IMG/VR virus record: IMGVR_UViG_3300042554_001242
Location: 1 to 40,223 of that record
Length of the DNA stretch: 40,223 nt
Strand: one strand, 5' to 3'
Source of the DNA: a virus
Below the pieces are notes generated by a model. The model saw only the letters and a list, made by a program, of their open reading frames with translations, had not been told where the DNA came from and ran no database searches. Position 1 is the first letter of the stretch. Every line of letters starts with the position of its first letter. This document shows, one piece after another, positions 205 to 39,405 of this stretch. A program made the translations under genes and the position numbers.

Positions 205-1629
205 TCAGGCAACCGTCTCGTGACGAGCCGCGAACTGCGATGCGATGCCACCGAGCGTTTCAAAAAACTGGTAGTTGGCGGCATCAGCTTTCACCAAAGC
301 AGCCATGATCGGCTGGTTGTTGTCCGTGCTGGTCACGGCCTGGCCCGTGAGGGCAGACATGGCCATGGCCTTCACGACGTCCGGGTTGCTCCAAAAGATC
401 TGCCAGTACGGGTGGGTGCGGCCGAACACCACGACATTTGCCTGCCTGTTGCCCGTAACCTCGACGAACCTGTCGGAGTCGTTGAACGTCACACGAAACT
501 TTCGGCCCGTAAGCGGGTTTGTAACGGTGATACTGCCACAGCCTGGCTGAACCTTGGACGCCCGTCGCCTGCGGATGCCCGTATTCCTCGGAACGGCCGT
601 CCCCTCTTCGCCGTTCTCTGGCTTGGATCGCTTTTCACGCATCGCCTCAACGCCTGCCATGGCCTGGGTCAGTTCGTCGCCAGCCTCAGTTCCTATCTGG
701 CTTTCAAGAGTCAACGAGTGCTCAGCCTCACACTGCTTAAGCAAGTCTTCGATCTGAGGGTAGATCTGCTCGCACAACTGCTCCAACTCGTCGGCCGAGG
801 TCTTGTGCTTCGTCACCTCCCACTTCTCACTCGCATCGGCATCGTCGGGCTCCTCGAGCTTGATCACGCCGTAGAAGTTGGTGATGTCCATGGCACCACA
901 CCCGTAAGAGCGCGTGGTGCTGGTCTCCGAAAGCATCCGGTGCTTGAACTCAAACCTCCATCCGCCGTGCGTCCGATCGTGCGGCGACTTAACACCAGCC
1001 CACCACGAGTAAGCTTTTCCGCACAGCTCGCCAGACCCTTCCCGCCTGTCCGTCACGGCGACGACTTCGGGCTGCACGACCTCCACGTCGTTCACGAAGA
1101 TGCGACGGTTCGTGCGCAGTGCAGGAGCGAATGTCTGACGCAGCTTGTTTGCAACGTCCGAAAACACGATCCGCCGATCGACCCGGCTAACAGTGACAGT
1201 GGTTCCGCTGTGAGGTCCAATGCCGTACTGCGTCGTCTCGGTGGCAATCCACCTGCCCGTGTGAACCATTTCCTCAAAATCGGCAAACACCACGCGGAAG
1301 CAGTTGTTGCGCCGCACGGCAACCTCCACGGCCGTCCCAAGGGCCAACGCTGCATCCTTGGCACCAATGCCGTACCTGCCGGAAGTAGACCGATCCTCGT
1401 GGTCGTGGTCTCCGAGCCGAACGATCGCCGCAGGGTGCGGAGCCCCGACACCGTCGTCGGCAATGACCACCCGCCTGTTCTTCGTGTCGATCTTGACGAA
1501 CACATTCGTGGCCCATGCATCCATGGAGTTGTCCACCAGTTCGCAGATGGCAAGCCAGGCTGGCATCTCCTGCTTTCGCATGGAGTTGATAGCGTGCGTC
1601 TTCGGCGTAATGTCGATCTCACCAGTCAT
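205..1629 (-). CDS. GHKL-type ATPase (Hsp90/MORC-like N-terminal fold)
   Basis: A 474-residue protein with the Bergerat ATP-binding fold. The N-box is ELVDNSMDA (about residues 30-38; E30 is the probable general base), the G1 box is ADDGVGA (57-63), and the glycine lid is GRYGIGAKDAALALG (84-98). This is the arrangement seen in Hsp90, MORC and topoisomerase VI-B type ATPases, without a kinase phospho-acceptor domain. The C-terminal half ends in a region around KVQPGCGSITVTNPLTGRKF that I cannot assign. I chose the ATG at 1629; a TTG two codons earlier is possible. The stop codon of the ParB-like gene lies three bases upstream, so the two are probably translationally coupled. A role in DNA transactions or host interference is inference. 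Confidence 0.8.
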   Translation of the reverse strand: MTGEIDITPKTHAINSMRKQEMPAWLAICELVDNSMDAWATNVFVKIDTKNRRVVIADDGVGAPHPAAIVRLGDHDHEDRSTSGRYGIGAKDAALALGTAVEVAVRRNNCFRVVFADFEEMVHTGRWIATETTQYGIGPHSGTTVTVSRVDRRIVFSDVANKLRQTFAPALRTNRRIFVNDVEVVQPEVVAVTDRREGSGELCGKAYSWWAGVKSPHDRTHGGWRFEFKHRMLSETSTTRSYGCGAMDITNFYGVIKLEEPDDADASEKWEVTKHKTSADELEQLCEQIYPQIEDLLKQCEAEHSLTLESQIGTEAGDELTQAMAGVEAMREKRSKPENGEEGTAVPRNTGIRRRRASKVQPGCGSITVTNPLTGRKFRVTFNDSDRFVEVTGNRQANVVVFGRTHPYWQIFWSNPDVVKAMAMSALTGQAVTSTDNNQPIMAALVKADAANYQFFETLGGIASQFAARHETVA

Positions 1630-7259: not shown

Positions 7260-7331
7260 ATGTCGATCACAGTCTGGCTCGAGCTGTTGCTGCTCGTCGC
7301 TCGCATCCTGTCGGCCGGCGGAGCGTTCTAG
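7260..7331 (+). CDS. 23-residue membrane peptide
   Basis: A very short frame, MSITVWLELLLLVARILSAG plus three residues, almost wholly hydrophobic and long enough for one membrane span. The evidence for expression is a textbook AAGGAGG six bases before the ATG and two palindromes just upstream. Its TAG stop overlaps the stop of the convergent minus-strand gene in the sequence CTAG. It could be a toxin-like, holin-like or regulatory peptide; no homologue is recalled. Confidence 0.5.
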   Translation: MSITVWLELLLLVARILSAGGAF

Positions 7332-7732
7332 GCCGCCCTCGCCCTCACCTGAAACGCCAGCCGGCGGATGCCGATCCGGTGCTCGGTGGACGCGAACCAC
7401 AGGTTTGCCACCTCGACGACGCAGGCCAGCACGATCAGGTTGACGGCCTCACCCTGCTCCTCGGTCTCGCACCGCAGTTCGAGCACCTCGCGGACTTTCG
7501 CTGAGATTACGCCTATTGCATCCAGCGCCTCGCGGCCGGCGCCGGCCGCCTGCGCCCGCCTGGCTAGGTCGGCCATGTGACGCTCGGGCCAGTGCACGAG
7601 CGTGGCGTCGACGATCGCGGCCACCTCGTCGGGCAGCTGCAGGGCAGGGCCGCCGACGCGGTGCCGTACCTCCGCCCGCAGCCACGTCAGGTCCATGCCG
7701 GCGACGTCGCCCACGGGAGCCTCCAGCATCAT
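7328..7732 (-). CDS. Hypothetical protein at the end of the late operon (134 aa)
   Basis: A 134-residue, mostly helical protein of unknown function (LTWLRAEVRHRVGG, then helices rich in Ala/Glu/Arg and a hydrophobic segment AVNLIVLACVVEVANLWF near residues 96-113 that may be a membrane helix). I start it at the ATGATG at 7732 because the first ATG overlaps the stop of the Cys-rich gene as ATGA; an in-frame ATG at 7819 would overlap that gene by 91 bases. It is the last gene of the minus-strand operon. Confidence 0.6.
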   Translation of the reverse strand: MMLEAPVGDVAGMDLTWLRAEVRHRVGGPALQLPDEVAAIVDATLVHWPERHMADLARRAQAAGAGREALDAIGVISAKVREVLELRCETEEQGEAVNLIVLACVVEVANLWFASTEHRIGIRRLAFQVRARAA

Positions 7733-8037
7733 GGCGTGGCCGGCTTGCCAGGCGTGGGCGACGCCGCAGGCATCGGCGCTCGTGGCCGCTTGCAGCTGCA
7801 CGAGGCCGGGCACGGGCATGGCGTCCTGTGCCCGTCGCCGTGCACGATCACGCCGGTGCTGCCGCAGTCGCTGCAGCACTTGCCGTCCGGCGGAGCCGGG
7901 TCGGGCGGCACATCGGGCGACGTGACCATCGTGGCGCGTGCCGCGGCGATCGACGCAGCCGCGCGTGCCGACTCGCGGCCGATGTCGGCCGGGTCTGCGG
8001 AGAGCCACGTGAGGAACCAGACGATCCAGCGCCACAT
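7729..8037 (-). CDS. Membrane-anchored cysteine-rich protein (102 aa)
   Basis: Residues 1-14 (MWRWIVWFLTWLSA) form a hydrophobic anchor or signal segment. The middle is Pro/Ala-rich, and residues 54-84 contain a cysteine cluster CCSDCGSTG...CPCPASCSCK resembling a zinc-ribbon or DnaJ-like CxxC arrangement around a HGDGHRT motif. It lies in the putative lysis/membrane block, with four bases to the preceding gene. Function unknown. Confidence 0.65.
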   Translation of the reverse strand: MWRWIVWFLTWLSADPADIGRESARAAASIAAARATMVTSPDVPPDPAPPDGKCCSDCGSTGVIVHGDGHRTPCPCPASCSCKRPRAPMPAASPTPGKPATP

Positions 8038-8040
8038 GTG

Positions 8041-8295
8041 TCACCACCCTCGTCCGTGATCGACCGCCACGTAGCCGTCGGAGCCAATGTGCGAGCGGAT
8101 TTCGGCGTGCTGCTCGGCGGGCGGCTCTTCGACGAACACGGCCACCCACAGGAGCGATTTGGCCGCCCGGGCGATCCACCGCAGCACTGGGCGGTCCTCG
8201 AGCGGCTTGGGCTCGTGGGACGCACCGGAGCCGGCGTACCAGCCCACCGCCACGGCGATCACGACCATGGCCACCATGCGATGCCTGTCCGTCAT
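8041..8295 (-). CDS. Small membrane protein (84 aa)
   Basis: An 84-residue protein with one N-terminal membrane helix (MVAMVVIAVAVGWYAG, residues 7-22) and a second hydrophobic patch at about 47-55 (SLLWVAVFV). The C-terminus is hydrophilic (EIRSHIGSDGYVAVDH). Its start overlaps the stop of the C1 peptidase gene as ATGA. Position among membrane proteins suggests a lysis or envelope role such as a spanin or holin partner, but there is no diagnostic motif. Confidence 0.6.
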   Translation of the reverse strand: MTDRHRMVAMVVIAVAVGWYAGSGASHEPKPLEDRPVLRWIARAAKSLLWVAVFVEEPPAEQHAEIRSHIGSDGYVAVDHGRGW

Positions 8296-9353
8296 TGCTC
8301 CTCCGGTGGCGGCTGCAGCCAGTCGCCGTTGTGAATCTCGCGGTACGCAAACCCGTCCACGCCACCGATGGCGTAGCTGTCGCCCTGTGCAAGGATTCGC
8401 TGGATGGCCGACTTTTCGGCCCAGAATGTGCCGTCGGGCTGGTCTGGTGGGAATTTCCCACCGCCGACGTAATTGCCCCACGAGTTGCAGACGAGGCCAC
8501 CCGTGCGGTTGCCAAACCGCACGCCGATCACGCACATCTGGTGCATCCACGTGCCGGACGCGGCACAGAAGCCGTCGGCGTCGCGGTTGCCGCTGTTGAA
8601 GCCGACCGAGCTGGCGATGGTCACCGGGTAGCCCGAGGTCACGGCGGCGACCAGCTCGTCCCACGTCTTACAGGCCACCACGTGCCGGCAGGGATGCCGC
8701 TTGGCTCGCGCGTCGAGCTTGCCGTCGTCGCCCTGGCCGCCGCAGCCGTACGCTCCCCACGCCTTGGCGCGGGCCTTGTCGTACGTCCGCAGGTCGTGCC
8801 CTAGCACGTCCTCGCGGTACACGACGCCCCAGTCACGCAGCCAGCGGGCCGCTCCCCATCCGGTGGCACCGTCGCTCCACCCGCCAACCGGCGACCGACC
8901 GGAGCCGTCCCGGCCGCGCGCCTCGACCCGGGCACCGCCGTATATCGCTTCGCTGGCCGGCATCTTGGGCGGCTCGGCCAGCTTGCCGGTCGCCCAGTCC
9001 ACGGCCTCGGCGCAGAAGACGGCGTGCATCGCGCCCCAGGCTATGCAGTCGCCGATTCCTTGCTTGCCAACGACGAACGGCGTGCCGTACCGGGCGCGGT
9101 GCGCTCGGTCCATCTGCCTGTAGAGAAACGTGTCGACTGGCACGGCCTGACGCATGGCGTCGGCGCCGGCCTGGGCGAAGTAGGGCTCGGGCAGCTCCTC
9201 GAGGAACCGGGCGACTCCCTCGGGGTCTGGCACGTATCCGGTCAGGATCGCCGGCTGCCGCACCTCGCCGGCTGCCCACCAGAAGGAGAGCACAAGCCAG
9301 ACGACCAGTGCCGCAGCCGCCACGAGGCGCCACGGATGCTTGGGTGCGCTCAC
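8292..9353 (-). CDS. Papain-like (C1 family) cysteine peptidase with membrane anchor
   Basis: A 353-residue protein. Residues 9-27 form a hydrophobic signal-anchor. The catalytic domain carries the C1 triad in order: C103 in GIGDCIAWGAMHAV, H271 in WMHQMCVIGVR and N290 in VCNSWGNY (the NSWG box). A Gln equivalent to the oxyanion hole residue is Q98 in GKQGIGDC. The GTG start overlaps the upstream stop as GTGA. An exported protease in this position could help break down the host envelope at lysis, process an extracytoplasmic protein, or act against the host; no peptidoglycan-binding domain is attached. Confidence 0.85.
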   Translation of the reverse strand: MSAPKHPWRLVAAAALVVWLVLSFWWAAGEVRQPAILTGYVPDPEGVARFLEELPEPYFAQAGADAMRQAVPVDTFLYRQMDRAHRARYGTPFVVGKQGIGDCIAWGAMHAVFCAEAVDWATGKLAEPPKMPASEAIYGGARVEARGRDGSGRSPVGGWSDGATGWGAARWLRDWGVVYREDVLGHDLRTYDKARAKAWGAYGCGGQGDDGKLDARAKRHPCRHVVACKTWDELVAAVTSGYPVTIASSVGFNSGNRDADGFCAASGTWMHQMCVIGVRFGNRTGGLVCNSWGNYVGGGKFPPDQPDGTFWAEKSAIQRILAQGDSYAIGGVDGFAYREIHNGDWLQPPPEEQ

Positions 9354-9892
9354 CTAGCGGCCTCCGCGGCCCGGGCGACCTCACGGTAGGCGGCGACCCA
9401 CTTGGCCTTCTGCTCGGGCGTGAGCGGGCCTCCTGCGGTGCCTGCGACGGTGTTGAGGTAGTCCTCGATCGCCTGACGCGCGAGCGGGTGCTTGGCACCC
9501 AGCGACTCGCCACGGCACAGGAGGACGCGGCTGCGGACCCGCAGCTCGTCGAACGCCACGCCGGTGCGGATGAGCGGCTCGGGCTGGCTCGCGTCCCACT
9601 CGATCTCGTTGGCCAGCTCGGTGCACAGGGCTGCGACGAGCGCCGCGTCCCGGGCGGCATCCGGCCCGACGAACTTGCCGCGCAGCGTGAACGCCGCCGG
9701 GTCCGGGGCAGGGGCCGGCGCCGGCGTGGCCGGCGAGCTGGCGACGTACGACCACGCGGCCGCGGCGACGAGCGCGGCTGCGGCCAGGTGGCGGCTGTCG
9801 AGCTGCGGCCACCGCCATTCGTGGTAGTGAGCCTGAATCCACGGCCAGGCGAGCGCCACCGCGGCCACGGCGACGAGCAGGAGCGGCATCAT
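9350..9892 (-). CDS. Two-helix membrane protein of the lysis block (180 aa)
   Basis: A 180-residue protein with two N-terminal hydrophobic helices (residues 2-20 and about 36-52) separated by HYHEWRWPQLDSRH, then an Ala/Pro linker and a soluble helical C-terminal domain (about 68-180). Topology places the C-domain outside or inside as a tether. The ATGATG start overlaps the upstream gene's stop. It could be a spanin-like or holin-associated protein; unproven. Confidence 0.65.
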   Translation of the reverse strand: MMPLLLVAVAAVALAWPWIQAHYHEWRWPQLDSRHLAAAALVAAAAWSYVASSPATPAPAPAPDPAAFTLRGKFVGPDAARDAALVAALCTELANEIEWDASQPEPLIRTGVAFDELRVRSRVLLCRGESLGAKHPLARQAIEDYLNTVAGTAGGPLTPEQKAKWVAAYREVARAAEAAR

Positions 9893-10263
9893 TCGGCGGC
9901 CCTCGTGAGCGGTAGGACGATCTCGATGGCACCGCTGGCGAGGGCCAGCACGAGCGCCCGGATCGCTGGTCGGGCGAGGATCCAGACCGGCCAGACGACG
10001 ACCGGCACGGCCTTGTCCGCGAGCTGGTCGAAGAGCGCGGCCACGGCCTCGAGCACAAGCGCCTTTTTCTCGGCACCGCTCATCCCGAGCACCGCGTCGA
10101 GGGTCTCGACGGACAGCCGCAGGAGAGCAATCAGCAGCTCGCCAAACTCGGCCCACGTGATGCCGCCGGCGGCCTTGGCCTTGGCGACCTCGAGGAACGC
10201 GGCGACCTGCGCCATCAGCGTGGCCTCGCCGCCTGCGGCCATGACAGGTGCGTCGGAGATCAT
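9889..10263 (-). CDS. Holin-like/phage membrane-associated protein (124 aa)
   Basis: A 124-residue protein with an amphipathic helical N-terminal half (ITWAEFGELLIALLRLSVET, then GMSGAEKKALVLEAVAALFD) and a strongly hydrophobic C-terminal half (VPVVVWPVWILARPA and LVLALASGAIEIVLPL) that can span the membrane twice. Its size, topology and place beside other membrane proteins fit a holin, but holins have no conserved motif. ATGA overlap joins it to the upstream gene. Confidence 0.55.
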   Translation of the reverse strand: MISDAPVMAAGGEATLMAQVAAFLEVAKAKAAGGITWAEFGELLIALLRLSVETLDAVLGMSGAEKKALVLEAVAALFDQLADKAVPVVVWPVWILARPAIRALVLALASGAIEIVLPLTRAAE

Positions 10264-13268: not shown

Positions 13269-13510
13269 GCCTCGACTCCTTGGATGCCGCAGATGTCGTG
13301 GCCACGCTGTTGGCACACCGTGACGATCGCCCGGGCGAGCGCCCGCTTGTGCATGGGCACCTGGCCGACACGCCACCGATCCCGCAGCTCCTCGAGCTGC
13401 CGCAGGTCGGCCTCCGGCAGCCGCATGTACCACGGCGCGTAGCCTGGGCCTTTATTCGCAGCGACAGCGAGCACCTGGTCGATGATCGACGGCGTGTCGT
13501 CACTCGTCAC
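13244..13510 (-). CDS. Small hypothetical protein preceding the phosphoesterase (88 aa)
   Basis: An 88-residue basic helical protein (LRQLEELRDRWRVGQVPMHK then RALARAIVTVCQQRGHDICG). It overlaps the phosphoesterase start by 25 bases and the SprT-like gene end by 11 bases, so the three are coupled. No recognised domain. GTG start. Confidence 0.6.
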   Translation of the reverse strand: MTSDDTPSIIDQVLAVAANKGPGYAPWYMRLPEADLRQLEELRDRWRVGQVPMHKRALARAIVTVCQQRGHDICGIQGVEAWIGRRSH

Positions 13511-13766
13511 GTCGGAAGCCCTCCTGCTCGAGGACGGTGGTGAGCATGCCGGCGAACTCAGACACCGACTCTTCCGAGATGTCGGGCCACCTCGCGTGGA
13601 TCAGCTCGTGCAGGAGCGTGTCGAGGTAGTCGGTGCCGGTCAGGCGTGAGTCGACCGTGATCGTGCGCGTGGCGTAGTCGCACAGGCCGTAGAGATTGCG
13701 CAGCCGCGCCCGGACGATGTGCCACTTGGCACCGGCGATCTCGATCGTCCGCTGTCGCCTCGCCAT
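13500..13766 (-). CDS. SprT-like zinc metallopeptidase-type protein
   Basis: An 88-residue protein containing the zincin motif HELIH (residues 53-57) in DTLLHELIHARWPD. The length and context (ITVDSRL before the active-site helix) match minimal SprT-like phage proteins. SprT family members cleave DNA-bound proteins in cells; this short version lacks a C-terminal zinc ribbon and may be structural or a restricted protease. Confidence 0.75.
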   Translation of the reverse strand: MARRQRTIEIAGAKWHIVRARLRNLYGLCDYATRTITVDSRLTGTDYLDTLLHELIHARWPDISEESVSEFAGMLTTVLEQEGFRRDE

Positions 13767-21108: not shown

Positions 21109-21554
21109 CAGCGGAACGTCCTGTAGGTGGCCGTGATCACCGCCCGCCACACGTTGCGGTCGTGCAGTGCGTCGTCCGGGTTCACCTCGATCGCGACCTC
21201 GACCGGCGTGGTCACGCCGCTGGGCCACGTCACCGCTTGGTCCCAGGTGTGTGCCCGGATCGCGTCCGCGATCTCCTCCGCCAGGTCCAGCATGTCGTCG
21301 GCCATCTCGTCCGACGGCGTGTGCCGGCCGACGAAGACGGTCGCCTGGTAGTCGTACTGGTGGTGCGTGCGGTCGACTCGCTCGATCGTCAACGTGCCAG
21401 GCATGACCGCGATCACCGGGTCGACCATCTCCTCGATGGTGTAGTCCGGCCAGTTGACGCGCTCGACAGCCGGCTGCGTGGCCACCGACGTGAACGTCTC
21501 GGCGTCCAGGCCGTCGGCAAGAGCGTCGGCAATCTCACGCAGCGTGCTGCTCAT
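21108..21554 (-). CDS. Tail terminator/neck-like protein (148 aa)
   Basis: A 148-residue protein between the connector and the glycosyltransferase. N-terminal helix (LREIADALADGLDAETF), then beta strands (HHQYDYQATVFVGRH), a helix (MADDMLDLAEEIADAIRA) and a final WRAVITATYRTF strand: the fold order of phage tail terminators. Assigned by size, strand/helix order and position. Confidence 0.55.
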   Translation of the reverse strand: MSSTLREIADALADGLDAETFTSVATQPAVERVNWPDYTIEEMVDPVIAVMPGTLTIERVDRTHHQYDYQATVFVGRHTPSDEMADDMLDLAEEIADAIRAHTWDQAVTWPSGVTTPVEVAIEVNPDDALHDRNVWRAVITATYRTFR

Positions 21555-22581
21555 GGGCCTCGATCTGCTCCACGTTCTTCGCGAGCCGCGGGTCGTCCGG
21601 GCATCGTCGCACAGCCTCGCGGGCGTACTGCAGGGCTTGTGGGTGCTTGCCTAGATTCCACGCAGCCACGGCCGCCAGGTCGTAGGCCTTGGTGACAGCG
21701 TCCGGATCGGTGGCGTGCGTCGACTCGCCGGTGGCCTGCATGGCCGCCTCGGCGAACGTCAGGCACTCGACCCACTCCTGCCGCTGGTAGTGCACCCACG
21801 CGAGTTGCTGCCACGCGTCGGGCTCCGCCTTCGCCTCGTAGGCTGCCCGGTGCAGATGCCGCTCGTCTTGCGTCAGCCGGTACAGGGCGCGGTATGCGTA
21901 CGACCGCTCCGTAGGCGTGCCCGGCAGGCCGAGGTAGTGTGCGAACGTCGCCGCGGCGGCCGGGTGCCCGACCCACTCCTGCTCGCGGGCGAGGTACCAG
22001 TGAGCGCGGGCGTCGTGCGGCGCCTCGCGGACCGCCACCTCAAGCAGCTCGAGGTCCGTCTTGTGCCGCTTGCCAGGCGTCCGGTGGTGATGGATCTCCA
22101 GACCGTCGGCAACGGCCTGCACCTTCTCGCCTGACCAGCACACGAGCCCCTCGTGCGTCGGTGCCGACCACCGGAACCCGCGGCGGGCGTGGACGCGGTC
22201 CGAGAGGAACACCAGCCCAGGCACGCCTGGCGACTTCCACGACCACACGTAACGGTACCGCAGGTTGTTGACGTTGCCGGTCCACGCCCGCTCGATCGCC
22301 GCACGCCACCCGGGCTGCAGCCGCTCGTCGAGATCCAGCCGCACGCACACGTCCACGTCGTCCGGCAGGTGGTACAGCGACAGGTTGTGCGCATCGTCCC
22401 ACCGCCACGGGATCACGTTGCCGGTCATCACCGTGATGCCGCAGGACCGCAGCCGCTGCGGGGTCGAGTCGGTCGACCCGGTGTCCGTGACGATCACCAC
22501 GTCGGCGCCGTCGGTCGACTCGGCCCAGTCGATCGCGTGGGACTCCTCGTTCTTGGCGAGCGCGTAGATACCGATCTTCAC
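21535..22581 (-). CDS. GT2 family glycosyltransferase with TPR-like C-terminus
   Basis: A 348-residue protein. The N-terminal GT-A domain has ALAKNEE, DTGSTDS (33-39) and the metal-binding DLDE (83-86), the standard GT2 set. From about residue 175 the sequence turns into TPR-like helices (ARAHWYLAREQEWVGHPAAA, YRALYRLTQDERHLHRAAYE). GT2 plus TPR enzymes commonly glycosylate proteins or surface polymers. The GTG start overlaps the FkbM gene stop as GTGA. It is the last gene of a five-gene carbohydrate cassette; its acceptor could be the phage fibres. Confidence 0.85.
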   Translation of the reverse strand: MKIGIYALAKNEESHAIDWAESTDGADVVIVTDTGSTDSTPQRLRSCGITVMTGNVIPWRWDDAHNLSLYHLPDDVDVCVRLDLDERLQPGWRAAIERAWTGNVNNLRYRYVWSWKSPGVPGLVFLSDRVHARRGFRWSAPTHEGLVCWSGEKVQAVADGLEIHHHRTPGKRHKTDLELLEVAVREAPHDARAHWYLAREQEWVGHPAAAATFAHYLGLPGTPTERSYAYRALYRLTQDERHLHRAAYEAKAEPDAWQQLAWVHYQRQEWVECLTFAEAAMQATGESTHATDPDAVTKAYDLAAVAAWNLGKHPQALQYAREAVRRCPDDPRLAKNVEQIEAHEQHAA

Positions 22582-23207
22582 GAGCCGCCCCACGTGTAGA
22601 TGGTGTCATGCGGCAGCCGCTCCGCGACGGCGTACCCGTGAGCCAGAAACCACGCGTGCACGTCAGCGGCCGTGTGGCCGTAGCGCGTCTCGTTGCCAAT
22701 CGTCTCGACGACCACCGCCGGCCTGTGCACCGACACGGTCACCTCCGCACCATGCAACGCCTGCAGCTCGTAGCCCTCCACGTCCAGGTGCAGGCAGTCG
22801 ACCGGTGCTGCAAAGTCGTCGAGCCTGATGGTCGGGATCAGGCCGCCCGGCTGGCAGTAGTAGCCGCCGCAGTTGCCGTCGTGGTCCACCCGCATCGACA
22901 CCGGCTCGCGGTCGATGCCGAGCGCTGCCTGCACCTTGACCACGTTTGGCTGCTGGCAGTTGCGCACCAAGGCGTGGAAGTTGAGCGGGTGCGGCTCGAT
23001 CGCCAGCACCTGCCCAAACCGTGACGCGTAGGCCGCCACGTAGAACCCGGCATTCGCGCCGGCCACCACCACCGACCGCCACTGGCTGACCTGCCGCATG
23101 ACGCGATCCGGCAGGCCGGCCGCCATGTGCATCCAGTCCCAGCAGCCGCTGTCGGCCGCCGGCCACCACAAGCCGCCACGCTGCTCAAGCTGGTCGTCAA
23201 GCGTCAT
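22578..23207 (-). CDS. FkbM family methyltransferase
   Basis: A 209-residue SAM-dependent methyltransferase. Motif I is AGANAGFYVAAYA (49-61), followed by the FkbM signature EPHPLNFHAL (71-80), and later LHLDVEGYELQALHGAE. FkbM enzymes O-methylate sugars and related hydroxyls. The canonical DVGAN start of motif I is VVAGAN here, slightly divergent. ATGA overlap with the upstream methyltransferase and GTGA with the downstream glycosyltransferase indicate coupled synthesis. Confidence 0.85.
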   Translation of the reverse strand: MTLDDQLEQRGGLWWPAADSGCWDWMHMAAGLPDRVMRQVSQWRSVVVAGANAGFYVAAYASRFGQVLAIEPHPLNFHALVRNCQQPNVVKVQAALGIDREPVSMRVDHDGNCGGYYCQPGGLIPTIRLDDFAAPVDCLHLDVEGYELQALHGAEVTVSVHRPAVVVETIGNETRYGHTAADVHAWFLAHGYAVAERLPHDTIYTWGGS

Positions 23208-23749
23208 GTGATCACCGCACACTGCCGCAGGCCGTCGTCGATCCACCTGGCCGGCCGCTTGGCTTGGTCGAGGAACTCAAGCACCGCCCGCCGCACGTGC
23301 GGGTTGTCGCAGTCGTCCGCCAAGATCACCGGGCACGCGGCCACCAGCAGCAGGTCCCGCAGGGCACCCTGGTAGGAATGGTCGCCGTCGACGTGGGCAA
23401 AGTCCGCCCGCGGCAGCTCACGGACGTGCTGCGTGTCCACGACGACGAGCTGGGCATCGATGCCGCGGCGGGCTCGCACGGCGTGCCAGTGCCGCAGGCA
23501 CTCGGGCGAGTCGTCGTCGAGGCCGCCGTCGATGCACAGGTAGCGTGCCATCGGTGCCGCCACGGCGAACGCCGCGAGCGAGTAGCCCGCCCGGGTGCCG
23601 ATCTCGATCACGCTGCCCGGTGAGAATTCGGCACACACGGCAGCCTTGTTGACGTAGTGGCCGGCGGCCTCGTCCGTCAGGCGAAACCAGTCGCCAGGCC
23701 GCCAGACGTCGACCAAGGCTGCCAGCACCTGCTCCCTACTCGGTAGCAT
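23204..23749 (-). CDS. Class I SAM-dependent methyltransferase
   Basis: A 181-residue methyltransferase-fold protein of the Methyltransf_24 type: motif I VIEIGTRAGYSLAAFA (47-62), an acidic residue at the end of strand 2 (CIDGGLDDDS), and FAHVDGDHSYQGALRDL (117-133), a signature of this group. Likely substrate is a sugar or glycan hydroxyl, by context. Overlaps the upstream gene by 14 bases. Confidence 0.8.
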   Translation of the reverse strand: MLPSREQVLAALVDVWRPGDWFRLTDEAAGHYVNKAAVCAEFSPGSVIEIGTRAGYSLAAFAVAAPMARYLCIDGGLDDDSPECLRHWHAVRARRGIDAQLVVVDTQHVRELPRADFAHVDGDHSYQGALRDLLLVAACPVILADDCDNPHVRRAVLEFLDQAKRPARWIDDGLRQCAVIT

Positions 23750-24812
23750 CGAGCACCTCCCAGACGGCGGCGGCCGGCAGCTCGCACACCCACGCCTCCG
23801 CGTCGTGCACGCCGTAGGACACGATCACGCGGTCGCCCTGGACGGCGAGGCCGGCGGCGAACTCGATCACCCGCAGCTCGCGGAACGAGAACCAAGGGGA
23901 GACCCGCGCGAGCCGCAGGCCGGCGTCGAGCCAGATAAACCGATGCTCGTACACTCGCTGCGAGCCGACGTAGCACACCTCGTGCACGCACCCGAGCCAA
24001 CCGTCTCGGAAGGGCACGAGCTGTGACCCGCCCCGGAACCGCTTGGCCAGCGGCGTCGTCGCACCGCGCCTCGACAGCACGTAGCCGCCGGGCAGCTCGG
24101 GGTTGGCGTCGACCGTGACCAGGTGGCCGTCGTGGTGGCAGCCGTAGAGCCAGCCGCCTGGTGCCGCGAGGAACGGCATCCAGTTTTTCTCGTGCTCCTG
24201 CGTCGAGACGCTGTCGAGCACCCGCAGCCCGGACATGGTTGCCGAGCGGACGTCGAGGTCCGCCGTGGCGATCCGGCAGCGGCCGTCGGTCCACGGTGCC
24301 GCGTTGCGCACGGTCGCCGACACGCCCAGACCGGTTTCGGTATGCCGCAGCCGGCAGTCCTCGAGGCCGTGCACCGGGTAGCCGCTCGTCGGGTATTCCG
24401 GGGCGACGATGTGCCGCTGACTGACGACGCCGAGGTGCTGGTCGAACCTGACGACGATGTTTTCGGTGCGGATGACGCCGCCGTCCGCCTCGGGCATCCG
24501 GTATTGGTGGTCGACGATCTGGTAGTTGCTCGACCGCACGATGCCGATCAGGTCGCCGGCGACGAGCGCGATCGTCGGGTTGAACGTCGACCACCCGTCG
24601 TGCACCGGCTCCACGGCGATCCTGACGTGCCGCACCGCCGGCACCAGCTCGGACAGGAGCGGCGTGTACCACGCGCGGTTGCTGCGGGCGAGCTGCTCGG
24701 TCTCGACCGCCAGGCCTGGCACGGCCAGCAGCTGCTCGGCCGCGCGGCGGCCGGCGGCGATCTCGTCGCAATAGAAGGCGTGCTGCAACAGCCCGGCGAG
24801 GTGCTCCACCAT
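23736..24812 (-). CDS. GH130-like beta-propeller protein
   Basis: A 358-residue protein with features of the GH130/five-bladed propeller superfamily: FNPTIA (77-82), HGLEDCRL (148-155), EKNWMPF and a closing VIVSYGVHDAEAWVCELP. In GH130 phosphorylases GLEDPR contributes an acid residue near the active site; the substitution C for P leaves activity uncertain. Propeller proteins of this type are often encoded beside glycosyltransferases. The first 50 residues are a separate helical region. Confidence 0.7.
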   Translation of the reverse strand: MVEHLAGLLQHAFYCDEIAAGRRAAEQLLAVPGLAVETEQLARSNRAWYTPLLSELVPAVRHVRIAVEPVHDGWSTFNPTIALVAGDLIGIVRSSNYQIVDHQYRMPEADGGVIRTENIVVRFDQHLGVVSQRHIVAPEYPTSGYPVHGLEDCRLRHTETGLGVSATVRNAAPWTDGRCRIATADLDVRSATMSGLRVLDSVSTQEHEKNWMPFLAAPGGWLYGCHHDGHLVTVDANPELPGGYVLSRRGATTPLAKRFRGGSQLVPFRDGWLGCVHEVCYVGSQRVYEHRFIWLDAGLRLARVSPWFSFRELRVIEFAAGLAVQGDRVIVSYGVHDAEAWVCELPAAAVWEVLDATE

Positions 24813-24852
24813 GCCGCCATCGTGACCAGCGGCCGGCAGGCGGCAGAGGGGG

Positions 24853-25803
24853 TCAGGCAGCCGCGTGGACGGCAGCGTGCCGTACCGTCTCGCGGATGCC
24901 GGCGGCTAGGGTGACGGATGGCCGCCAGCCCAGCAGGTGCTCGGCGAAGGCTGCGTCGACCAGGCTACTGCCCAGGTCGCCGGCTCGTGGATTGCCGTGC
25001 ACCGGCGGCGGCAGGCCACGGCCCGTGACGGCCTCGACCTCTCCCCGCACCAGCTGCTCGAGCTGGGCCACGCTTGTGCCCACGCCGGTGCCCACGTTGA
25101 CCGGGAAAAGCCTGCCGTATGGCAGCTCTGCAGTCAGCGCCAGCACGTTGGCGGTGGCCACGTCCCGCACGTGAACGTAGTCGCGCGCCTGGCTGCCGAC
25201 GCCGTGGATCTGGCACGGCCGACCCTCCATCGCCGCCCGGCAGAAGATCGCCACGACGCCGGCCTCGCCGTGCGGGTTCTGCCGTGGCCCGTAGACGTTC
25301 GCGTACCGCAGCGCCACGGCCTGCATGTGGTACCAGTGTGCGTGCCACGCCAGGTACCGCTCCGCCGTGAGTTTGGCCAAACCGTACGGGCTGACCGGGT
25401 CTCGGACGGCCTCCTCGACGGCCGGCTCGCGCACGTTGCCGTAGACGACGCCACCGGACGACGCGAAGACGATCCGCCGGCAGTCATGCCGTACGGCAGC
25501 GGAGACGACGTTGATCAGCCCGACGACGTTGACCTCGGCGTCGAACGCCACGTCTCGCACGGACCGGCTCACGCTGATCTGGGCGGCCTGGTGGCAGATG
25601 GCCGTCGGTCGCACCTCTCGGACGACCCGCTCGACGTCGCCGGCGTCCCGCACGTCGACCACGTGCACCGCAACGCCTGGCGGCACGTTGCCGCGGCTGC
25701 CGGTCGACAGGTCGTCGAGGACTGCGACGCCGTGGCCCGCCTGGAGCAGCTGGTCGACGACGTGGCTGCCGATGAAACCGGCTCCGCCGGTGACAAGAAT
25801 CAT
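24853..25803 (-). CDS. NAD-dependent sugar-nucleotide epimerase/dehydratase (GalE-like)
   Basis: A 316-residue extended short-chain dehydrogenase. The Rossmann motif is TGGAGFIG (5-12), catalytic residues Y140 and K144 (YGLAK) follow S115 or S116, and RYANVYGPRQN marks the UDP-sugar epimerase subgroup. It would interconvert nucleotide sugars, supplying the glycosyltransferase. ATGA overlap ties it to the LamG gene upstream; a 40-base gap separates it from the propeller gene. Confidence 0.9.
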   Translation of the reverse strand: MILVTGGAGFIGSHVVDQLLQAGHGVAVLDDLSTGSRGNVPPGVAVHVVDVRDAGDVERVVREVRPTAICHQAAQISVSRSVRDVAFDAEVNVVGLINVVSAAVRHDCRRIVFASSGGVVYGNVREPAVEEAVRDPVSPYGLAKLTAERYLAWHAHWYHMQAVALRYANVYGPRQNPHGEAGVVAIFCRAAMEGRPCQIHGVGSQARDYVHVRDVATANVLALTAELPYGRLFPVNVGTGVGTSVAQLEQLVRGEVEAVTGRGLPPPVHGNPRAGDLGSSLVDAAFAEHLLGWRPSVTLAAGIRETVRHAAVHAAA

Positions 25804-38303: not shown

Positions 38304-38660
38304 CTACCGGCCAGAAGGACCCGCCACATTGGCAGCGGCTGCCATGATGGCTTGACATACGTCAAGCAGCCTCGACGTCTCGATGATCACGACGCTGTCG
38401 TGGTTGTTGCGTCTGTGCCACACGATCGGCACCTTGTCGCCGCACTCGTCACGCGCCTGCGTGATCGCAGCGTATAGATCAAGTCGCTCAGTGCGCTTGC
38501 ACTCGACGTGTATAGGCACGCCATCGAGCACGACATCAGGCGAGTCCGGCCCGCCTTGGTACTGCACGCCACGGCGTGCGGTCACGCCTAGCAGCCTGGC
38601 CAGCTCGGCCGCACACTCGCGCTCACCTCGCTTGCCCTTCTGACGGCTCATGCGTCCCAT
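38304..38660 (-). CDS. PD-(D/E)XK nuclease, Holliday junction resolvase-like
   Basis: A 118-residue protein with KRGERECAAELARLL, then PDVVLDG and HVECKRTERLDLY: the D42...E53-x-K55 active-site spacing of PD-(D/E)XK nucleases. Size and the N-terminal KGKRGERE helix fit archaeal/phage Hjc-type or phage resolvase-like enzymes that resolve recombination intermediates before packaging. ATG 38660 has GGAGG six bases upstream. The start overlaps the serine protease end by 38 bases. Confidence 0.8.
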   Translation of the reverse strand: MGRMSRQKGKRGERECAAELARLLGVTARRGVQYQGGPDSPDVVLDGVPIHVECKRTERLDLYAAITQARDECGDKVPIVWHRRNNHDSVVIIETSRLLDVCQAIMAAAANVAGPSGR

Positions 38661-39405
38661 GGTGTGCCTCCATGACGGACCGCATCCACGCACGCACAGG
38701 AGGCAACAGCACGTGCCCGCTCTCCTCGCCGTAGCGTGAACGAAGTGGCCCGCGTGGACCGACCTGGTGCGAGTTGATCGCGGCCAGCTTGGCGTGTGAC
38801 CCTGACCCCACAAACAGCGGCCCGCCACTGTCGCCCGGGGCGATCATGTACTCGAGCGGCGACGACCTGGCCTTGGCCGAGCAGGTGACAATCGGCCCGT
38901 CGATCGAGTCGATCGTCTGCGTGCCGGCTCGGAGCCGGCCGTCTGCGATCTCGTAGCCTCGCCCCATGGTGCCCGTCACCCCGTAGCCGGCGACGATGCA
39001 GGCCTCGCCGGCCGTGACCGTCTCGGCAATCTCCGGGTACCAGGGCAGGGCACAGTCCTCGGTCGTCCGCAGGATCGCCAAGTCCTCGCTGGCCATGGCC
39101 AGACGCTCCCAGCCCGGGTGAACCACGACCAGGTCGACGTCCCGGGACGTATCGGCGAACGCCAGCCGCACGCCGTCGCAGCCGGCCACGACGTGTGCCG
39201 CCGTCAGCGCCCAGCGGCCGGCGATGACCACCGCCGTGGCCGTGTGCCGATGCCCCTCGGGGCTGCGGCAGCTCACCGCCGCCGTGTACGGCCGCATCTG
39301 CCGACCGAGCTCGAGGTACCGGGCATCCGGCACGCCGTCGTCCCTGGTCCCAGCGACGGCTGGGTGCGTCAGGGTCAGCGCGAGGATCACGACCAGGGCT
39401 CGCAT
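38623..39405 (-). CDS. Secreted trypsin-like (S1) serine protease
   Basis: A 260-residue protein with a cleavable signal peptide (MRALVVILALTLTHPAVAG, probable cut after A18 or G19) and a chymotrypsin-fold catalytic triad: H71 in ALTAAHVVAGC, D108 in SEDLAIL, and S193 in APGDSGGPLF. Paired cysteines (C46, C76, C118, C136, C175) could form disulphides outside the cytoplasm. A secreted S1 protease inside the replication region of a phage is unusual. It may act in the host periplasm or on the surface, or be a lysogenic-conversion gene. Confidence 0.9.
   Translation of the reverse strand: MRALVVILALTLTHPAVAGTRDDGVPDARYLELGRQMRPYTAAVSCRSPEGHRHTATAVVIAGRWALTAAHVVAGCDGVRLAFADTSRDVDLVVVHPGWERLAMASEDLAILRTTEDCALPWYPEIAETVTAGEACIVAGYGVTGTMGRGYEIADGRLRAGTQTIDSIDGPIVTCSAKARSSPLEYMIAPGDSGGPLFVGSGSHAKLAAINSHQVGPRGPLRSRYGEESGHVLLPPVRAWMRSVMEAHHGTHEPSEGQAR

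Follow-up and report, generated by a model that had tools for sequence, protein, structure and literature searches.

A papain-like cysteine peptidase cassette of Planctomycetota phages and its putative role in breaching the host envelope

The window, i.e., the whole stretch of DNA analysed here, is a virus contig of 40,223 bp with a direct terminal repeat of 127 bp at its ends, and the genome is therefore probably complete. On its minus strand, following the tail genes, lies a gene with a GTG start that encodes a C1 (papain-like) cysteine peptidase of 353 aa. The gene is part of a cassette that reads, 5' to 3' on that strand, g17, g16, C1, g14, a gene for a Cys-rich protein, and g13. Neighbouring genes overlap by 4 bases throughout, except for g14 and the Cys-rich gene, which lie 3 bases apart. 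The features are as follows.

9889..10263, minus strand: g17, small membrane protein of 124 aa, resembling a holin only in its size and position, conserved upstream of g16
9350..9892, minus strand: g16, membrane-anchored four-helix partner of 180 aa, its stop overlapping the C1 start (g16 HMM)
8292..9353, minus strand: C1 (papain-like) cysteine peptidase with N-terminal signal anchor (sequence, alignment and model)
9270..9326, minus strand: hydrophobic membrane-anchor segment of C1, residues 10-28, mean Kyte-Doolittle 2.22 over 19 residues, helix 7-29 in the model
9060..9062, minus strand: codon for Q98, the oxyanion-hole glutamine, invariant in 23 relatives
9045..9047, minus strand: codon for catalytic C103, invariant in 23 relatives
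8541..8543, minus strand: codon for catalytic H271, invariant in 23 relatives
8484..8486, minus strand: codon for N290 (NSWG), invariant in 23 relatives
8041..8295, minus strand: g14, small single-pass membrane protein of 84 aa, directly downstream of C1 and conserved there
7729..8037, minus strand: Cys-rich protein of 102 aa, CCSDCGSTG...CPCPASC, BLAST match to the G408 fusion at E 6.5e-5
7328..7732, minus strand: g13, last cassette gene, 134 aa, its ATG overlapping the stop of the Cys-rich gene
38623-39405, minus strand: S1 protease, Pfam Trypsin at E 1.1e-16

The cassette is co-directional and tightly packed with the late genes, and its end adjoins the integrase region. Elsewhere in the window, a 474-aa protein with a GHKL ATPase domain (205-1629, minus strand; HATPase_c_3, E 4.6e-14) is unusual for a 40-kb phage and has no PADLOC match, and a stretch inside the tail module (21535-25803, minus strand) holds sugar- and methyl-transfer genes, namely a glycosyltransferase-like gene, an FkbM methyltransferase and an NAD epimerase.

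The initial annotation had read C103, H271 and N290 (NSWG) as a C1 triad behind a signal anchor, and both assignments were borne out. Q98, G101, C103, H271 and N290-S-W-G show no variation in 23 aligned IMG/VR relatives, the most distant of which share 25-27% identity, which puts the triad far outside what chance would give, and the order that marks the C1A branch, Cys-His-Asn with the oxyanion Gln ahead of the Cys, was found across these 23 sequences. In an AlphaFold (AF2) model of pLDDT 85, Foldseek matched the protein to xylellain (E 3e-11) and also to cathepsins B and L and papain, in keeping with a papain fold, with 164 PDB matches at E < 0.001. Four pairwise comparisons gave dN/dS values of 0.08-0.28. 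Family databases are nearly silent: the window protein has no Pfam match, its 23 relatives yield a single weak one (Peptidase_C39_2, E 0.063), and the best PHROG match is weak (E 0.006), to a PHROG of unknown function. By its modelled fold and NSWG motif, the gene product is a papain-like peptidase of the C1A branch and a predicted thiol peptidase. A hydrophobic N-terminal segment is present in 63 of 76 homologues, and about a dozen of the 76 are without an anchor.

The neighbouring proteins are less easily placed. The model of g16 shows two N-terminal helices followed by a helix bundle, for which the PDB offered nothing better than E 0.69, and its fold was therefore dropped as a functional clue. 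A holin-like neighbour had also been proposed; a small membrane protein is indeed conserved beside the protease, but searches of the small membrane proteins, g17 included, against holin families returned nothing significant (best holin, E 0.17). The Cys-rich protein is related to the N-terminal region of prophage proteins in which a Cys-rich part is fused to a thioredoxin, and no thioredoxin-type WCxxC protein was found in the window. PADLOC returned no match for the cassette genes, C1 included, and a defence system was set aside on that account.

The host of the window phage very probably belongs to the Planctomycetota. The closest cellular matches of the window are Planctomycetota prophages; for example, those of genomes G302 and G340 match its terminase, portal and capsid-protease (E to 1e-137), and its integrase matches one in Planctomycetes bacterium Pan216 (E 2e-33). 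Against Pseudomonas phages, terminase identity is only 27%. A C1-profile scan of genome contigs found five loci, four of them in genomes named Planctomycetota and the fifth on an 8.5-kb MAG contig labelled Flavipsychrobacter, and three C1 queries found the gene in none of the isolated phages in the collection. Among 392 sampled Planctomycetota genomes, C1 is present in 16 (13 at E 2e-14 or better, 3 weak), with three loci in Pan216. Phage_lysozyme occurs in 6 of the 392, none of which bears C1.

The cassette is common to unrelated planctomycete phages and inherited phage remnants, recurring in differing phage contexts, in prophages and in one vertically inherited phage-derived element. Its general form comprises small membrane proteins, a four-helix exported partner, the C1 peptidase, a further small membrane protein and a Cys-rich/thioredoxin protein. 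A g16 HMM, whose training set included 14 sequences from the 77 loci searched, put the partner next to C1 on the upstream side in 61 of the 77, and at most three genes away on that side in 69. In several prophages and in L063, the g16 helix domain is preceded, as judged by eye, by a signal peptide and an Ig/PKD-like stretch. Fusions of a small membrane-protein region to a g16-like helix domain were seen at L072:5222-6451, L124:777-1700 and L125:18021-19124, suggesting that the membrane protein and the partner are functionally linked.

Downstream of the peptidase, an ORF with a CxxCxG motif lies within 2.5 kb in 37 of 60 loci, relative to 0 of 33 control pieces. A cassette-thioredoxin HMM matches 11 loci and no controls; setting aside seeds and L094, which repeats G171, leaves the four loci L066, L060, G380 and L067. 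Further thioredoxin matches in cassette loci came from Pfam and from sequence comparison with solved structures. In G318 and G408, the Cys-rich and thioredoxin-like parts form one protein, and in G318 the thioredoxin domain of this protein has matches among solved thioredoxin structures. Genes resembling g13 follow the cassette in L007, L014, L020, L003, L004 and L023, and L057 has a possible counterpart recognised by eye. The genomic setting varies widely. In L047 and L053, the cassette sits between the prohead protease and capsid genes; in G340, its neighbour is the capsid-protease gene, without a separate prohead protease alongside; and in L064, L065, L067, G140, G358 and G352, it lies upstream of the terminase. 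The nearest genes past the cassette in L055 read as helix-turn-helix proteins, and in G171 and G380 the cassette is chromosomal with no phage genes directly beside it.

A phage-derived block of terminase, portal, capsid and tail genes houses the cassette in G140 and G358, at a single chromosomal position whose flanks are syntenic. Block and flanks are alike in synonymous divergence, and dN/dS is 0.12 for C1 and no more than 0.35 for most block genes, which suggests that the block has been passed on vertically, with most of its genes under purifying selection. Three more genomes carry the block's terminase at 55-56% identity. In two of these related blocks, those of the sister genomes G346 and G224, the C1 family is absent at the block position, and neither genome is listed in the genome-wide C1 search. 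Upstream of their terminase, a 255-aa protein carries Q, GSC, GHAIY and NSWGTWG, and is thus papain-like. It adjoins a gene whose product, as read by eye, begins with a signal-like sequence and contains a CxxC stretch resembling that of thioredoxins, and small membrane proteins are found beside it as well. A profile comparison of the 255-aa protein with the C1 family gave a probability of 80% (E 1e-5), and as a single sequence it drew weak PDB matches (E 0.9). In our reading, one papain-like peptidase has here apparently given way to another, very distant one that fills the same functional slot. The related blocks are found at L111-L114 (G140, G358), L109-L110 (G352) and L159-L162 (G346, G224), and the phage-derived block may represent a gene transfer agent or some other domesticated particle of Planctomycetota.

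The observation that no endolysin is visible in the window held up in Pfam screens and in direct searches. Pfam found no endolysin family among the window's called proteins (one scan covered the best 25 of 41 families, for some proteins at E <= 2.4e-8), nor among the larger unassigned proteins of G008, G011, G006, G012 and G013, nor, among the best 25 of 27 families, in such proteins of prophages G302, G340 and G016 and the G140 block; the screens of relatives covered proteins beyond the very short ones and those already recognised by eye. Direct searches for Peptidase_M15_3, Phage_lysozyme and SLT in 15 records including the window were empty, as was one for Amidase_2 in the 14 records other than the window. 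The C1 protein itself yielded neither a recognised peptidoglycan hydrolase domain nor a peptidoglycan-binding domain. Endolysins without a Pfam match may hide among the window's many orphan genes. One candidate hidden hydrolase is an 88-aa protein with an HELIH motif and a weak SprT-like match (13500-13766, minus strand; E 8e-4), possibly a small metallopeptidase; a short HExxH protein in L057, recognised by eye, and a SprT-like match in G012 are similar.

The S1 protease, which the initial annotation had paired with C1 as a second exported protease, does exist, but it is not a conserved companion: across 14 records, the Trypsin model found it only in the three closest relatives (G001, G002 and G004), which rules it out as an obligatory partner. 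The 85-kb phage G012 has an unrelated Trypsin_2 gene, and the window's S1 protease has weak PADLOC matches to RT-Protease and LmuA. Of the accompanying idea of lysis by protease, the anchored enzyme, the tight operon and the want of a classical endolysin remain, while S1 as a partner does not.

Taken as a whole, the many contexts of the cassette, its tight operon, the anchor in most homologues and the lack of classical endolysins favour a role in lysis or release. With no recognisable standard endolysin and a recurring C1 cassette, these phages may exit using a protease and a redox partner. We infer lysis, export and substrate, and on balance consider it probable that Planctomycetota phages use the C1 peptidase as the catalytic component of an envelope-breaching (lysis) module, in the role of an endolysin. 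Late in infection, the peptidase would be exported by its signal anchor or, in relatives lacking one, would rely on the small membrane proteins to get across the membrane. The exported four-helix partner g16 may position or restrain it, and the exported Cys-rich/thioredoxin-like protein may open envelope disulfides or maintain the catalytic cysteine in its reduced state. The peptidase would then cut peptide bonds of the host envelope in place of a classical endolysin. Against lysis stand the homologues without an anchor, the lack of a holin match for g17 and the missing WCxxC protein in the window; in addition, known C1A enzymes cut proteins, and papain-fold enzymes that cut peptidoglycan mostly belong to the NlpC/CHAP cluster (PMC10318531).

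What such a module would attack depends on the host envelope. Mur ligases are encoded in all five C1-bearing genomes considered and PBP transpeptidases in four, so that host peptidoglycan is probably present, and on the strength of the Mur ligases the simple idea of a host without peptidoglycan was rejected. The complete chromosome of Pan216 (G016, locus L065) encodes Mur ligases and has no match to the PBP transpeptidase family PF00905; published work on this organism (Kolteria novifilia) reports mur genes and, from electron microscopy, a surface layer (PMC12288469). In the Planctomyces group, a passage of PMC3035269 citing 1986 work describes an envelope of Cys-rich, disulfide-stabilised protein, which would fit a protease acting with a thioredoxin. 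The cassette thioredoxin could also simply keep the peptidase reduced, and a proteinaceous wall is a possible but putative target of the C1 peptidase. It is tempting to extend the proposed lysis role to a general statement, i.e., that proteolysis is how Planctomycetota phages, and one or more inherited phage-derived elements, lyse cells, the exported thioredoxin/Cys-rich protein opening the disulfides in an envelope of Cys-rich protein, the anchored peptidase cutting that envelope, and no peptidoglycan hydrolase taking part at all; in this full form, the idea is speculative and rather doubtful.

The presence of Mur ligases in all five hosts and of PBPs in four, together with the published mur genes of Pan216, also lends itself to a more conventional explanation, in which C1 is an endopeptidase of peptidoglycan peptide cross-links, i.e., an endolysin that cuts an ordinary sacculus but whose scaffold is C1A and not NlpC/CHAP. 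The annotations of viral relatives found by Foldseek, among them N-acetylmuramidase, peptidoglycan-binding-like and Lysin A, agree with it. We nonetheless regard it as unlikely: the nearest solved relatives (xylellain, cathepsins and papain) cut proteins, a search for a peptidoglycan-binding domain came up empty, this reading leaves the thioredoxin partner unexplained, and Pan216, with three copies of C1, lacks a PBP transpeptidase match. A module that serves not for lysis but to alter the surface of the host, in the lysogenic state or early in infection, through superinfection exclusion or receptor shedding, would suit a mobile cassette of exported or anchored proteins that ends beside the integrase region in the window and has no immediate phage-gene neighbours in G171 and G380. 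This appears improbable given that the cassette is co-directional and tightly packed with the window's late genes and, in other loci, with head or terminase genes, that PADLOC gave no match for its genes, and that it is retained in a non-mobile phage-derived block, where exclusion would bring little benefit. Finally, a virion-associated or maturation protease for entry or head/tail processing, as the gene order of L047 and L053 and the anchor-less homologues might suggest, is improbable too, since most homologues have a membrane anchor, the cassette moves independently of head genes, and the window already has a head maturation protease fused to its capsid gene (PHROG head maturation protease and major head and protease protein), which rules out that function in particular.

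Phage lysis of Planctomycetota is nearly unstudied, and judged by titles and the beginnings of abstracts, the papers found on lysis by papain-like enzymes or on gene transfer agents of planctomycetes contained nothing directly on point. The source of planctomycete mechanical strength has long been disputed, with thin peptidoglycan, a Cys-rich protein layer and an S-layer as contenders. With a conserved protease-redox cassette standing where a detectable endolysin would be expected, this question can be tested directly, and the cassette could provide a tool for opening planctomycete cells. If the lysis role is true, a C1A protease joins the short list of phage lysis enzymes.

Several known systems resemble the proposed lysis module in part. 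The NlpC/P60 and CHAP endolysins likewise have a papain-like fold and are used by phages for lysis (PMC10318531). The window peptidase differs from them in belonging to the C1A branch, in having no wall-binding domain and in its thioredoxin/Cys-rich partner. With the C1A enzymes themselves (papain, the cathepsins and the bacterial xylellain, 3ois), it shares the order and spacing of Q, C, H and NSWG and the overall fold, whereas the lack of a Pfam match, a signal anchor in place of a cleaved propeptide, and the phage cassette context set it apart. SAR endolysins, such as P1 Lyz, offer a parallel for the N-terminal Ala-rich hydrophobic anchor, which would export the enzyme without a holin lesion, release from the membrane being putative here; the SAR enzymes known to us are glycosidases or transglycosylases, unlike the C1 peptidase. 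Finally, PeiW and PeiP of archaeal viruses (MEROPS C71) are pseudomurein endoisopeptidases, i.e., cysteine peptidases that act as endolysins on an unusual host wall. We know of no redox partner for either; peptidase family and host differ from those described here, and the use of a cysteine peptidase in the endolysin role is what they have in common with the proposed function of C1.
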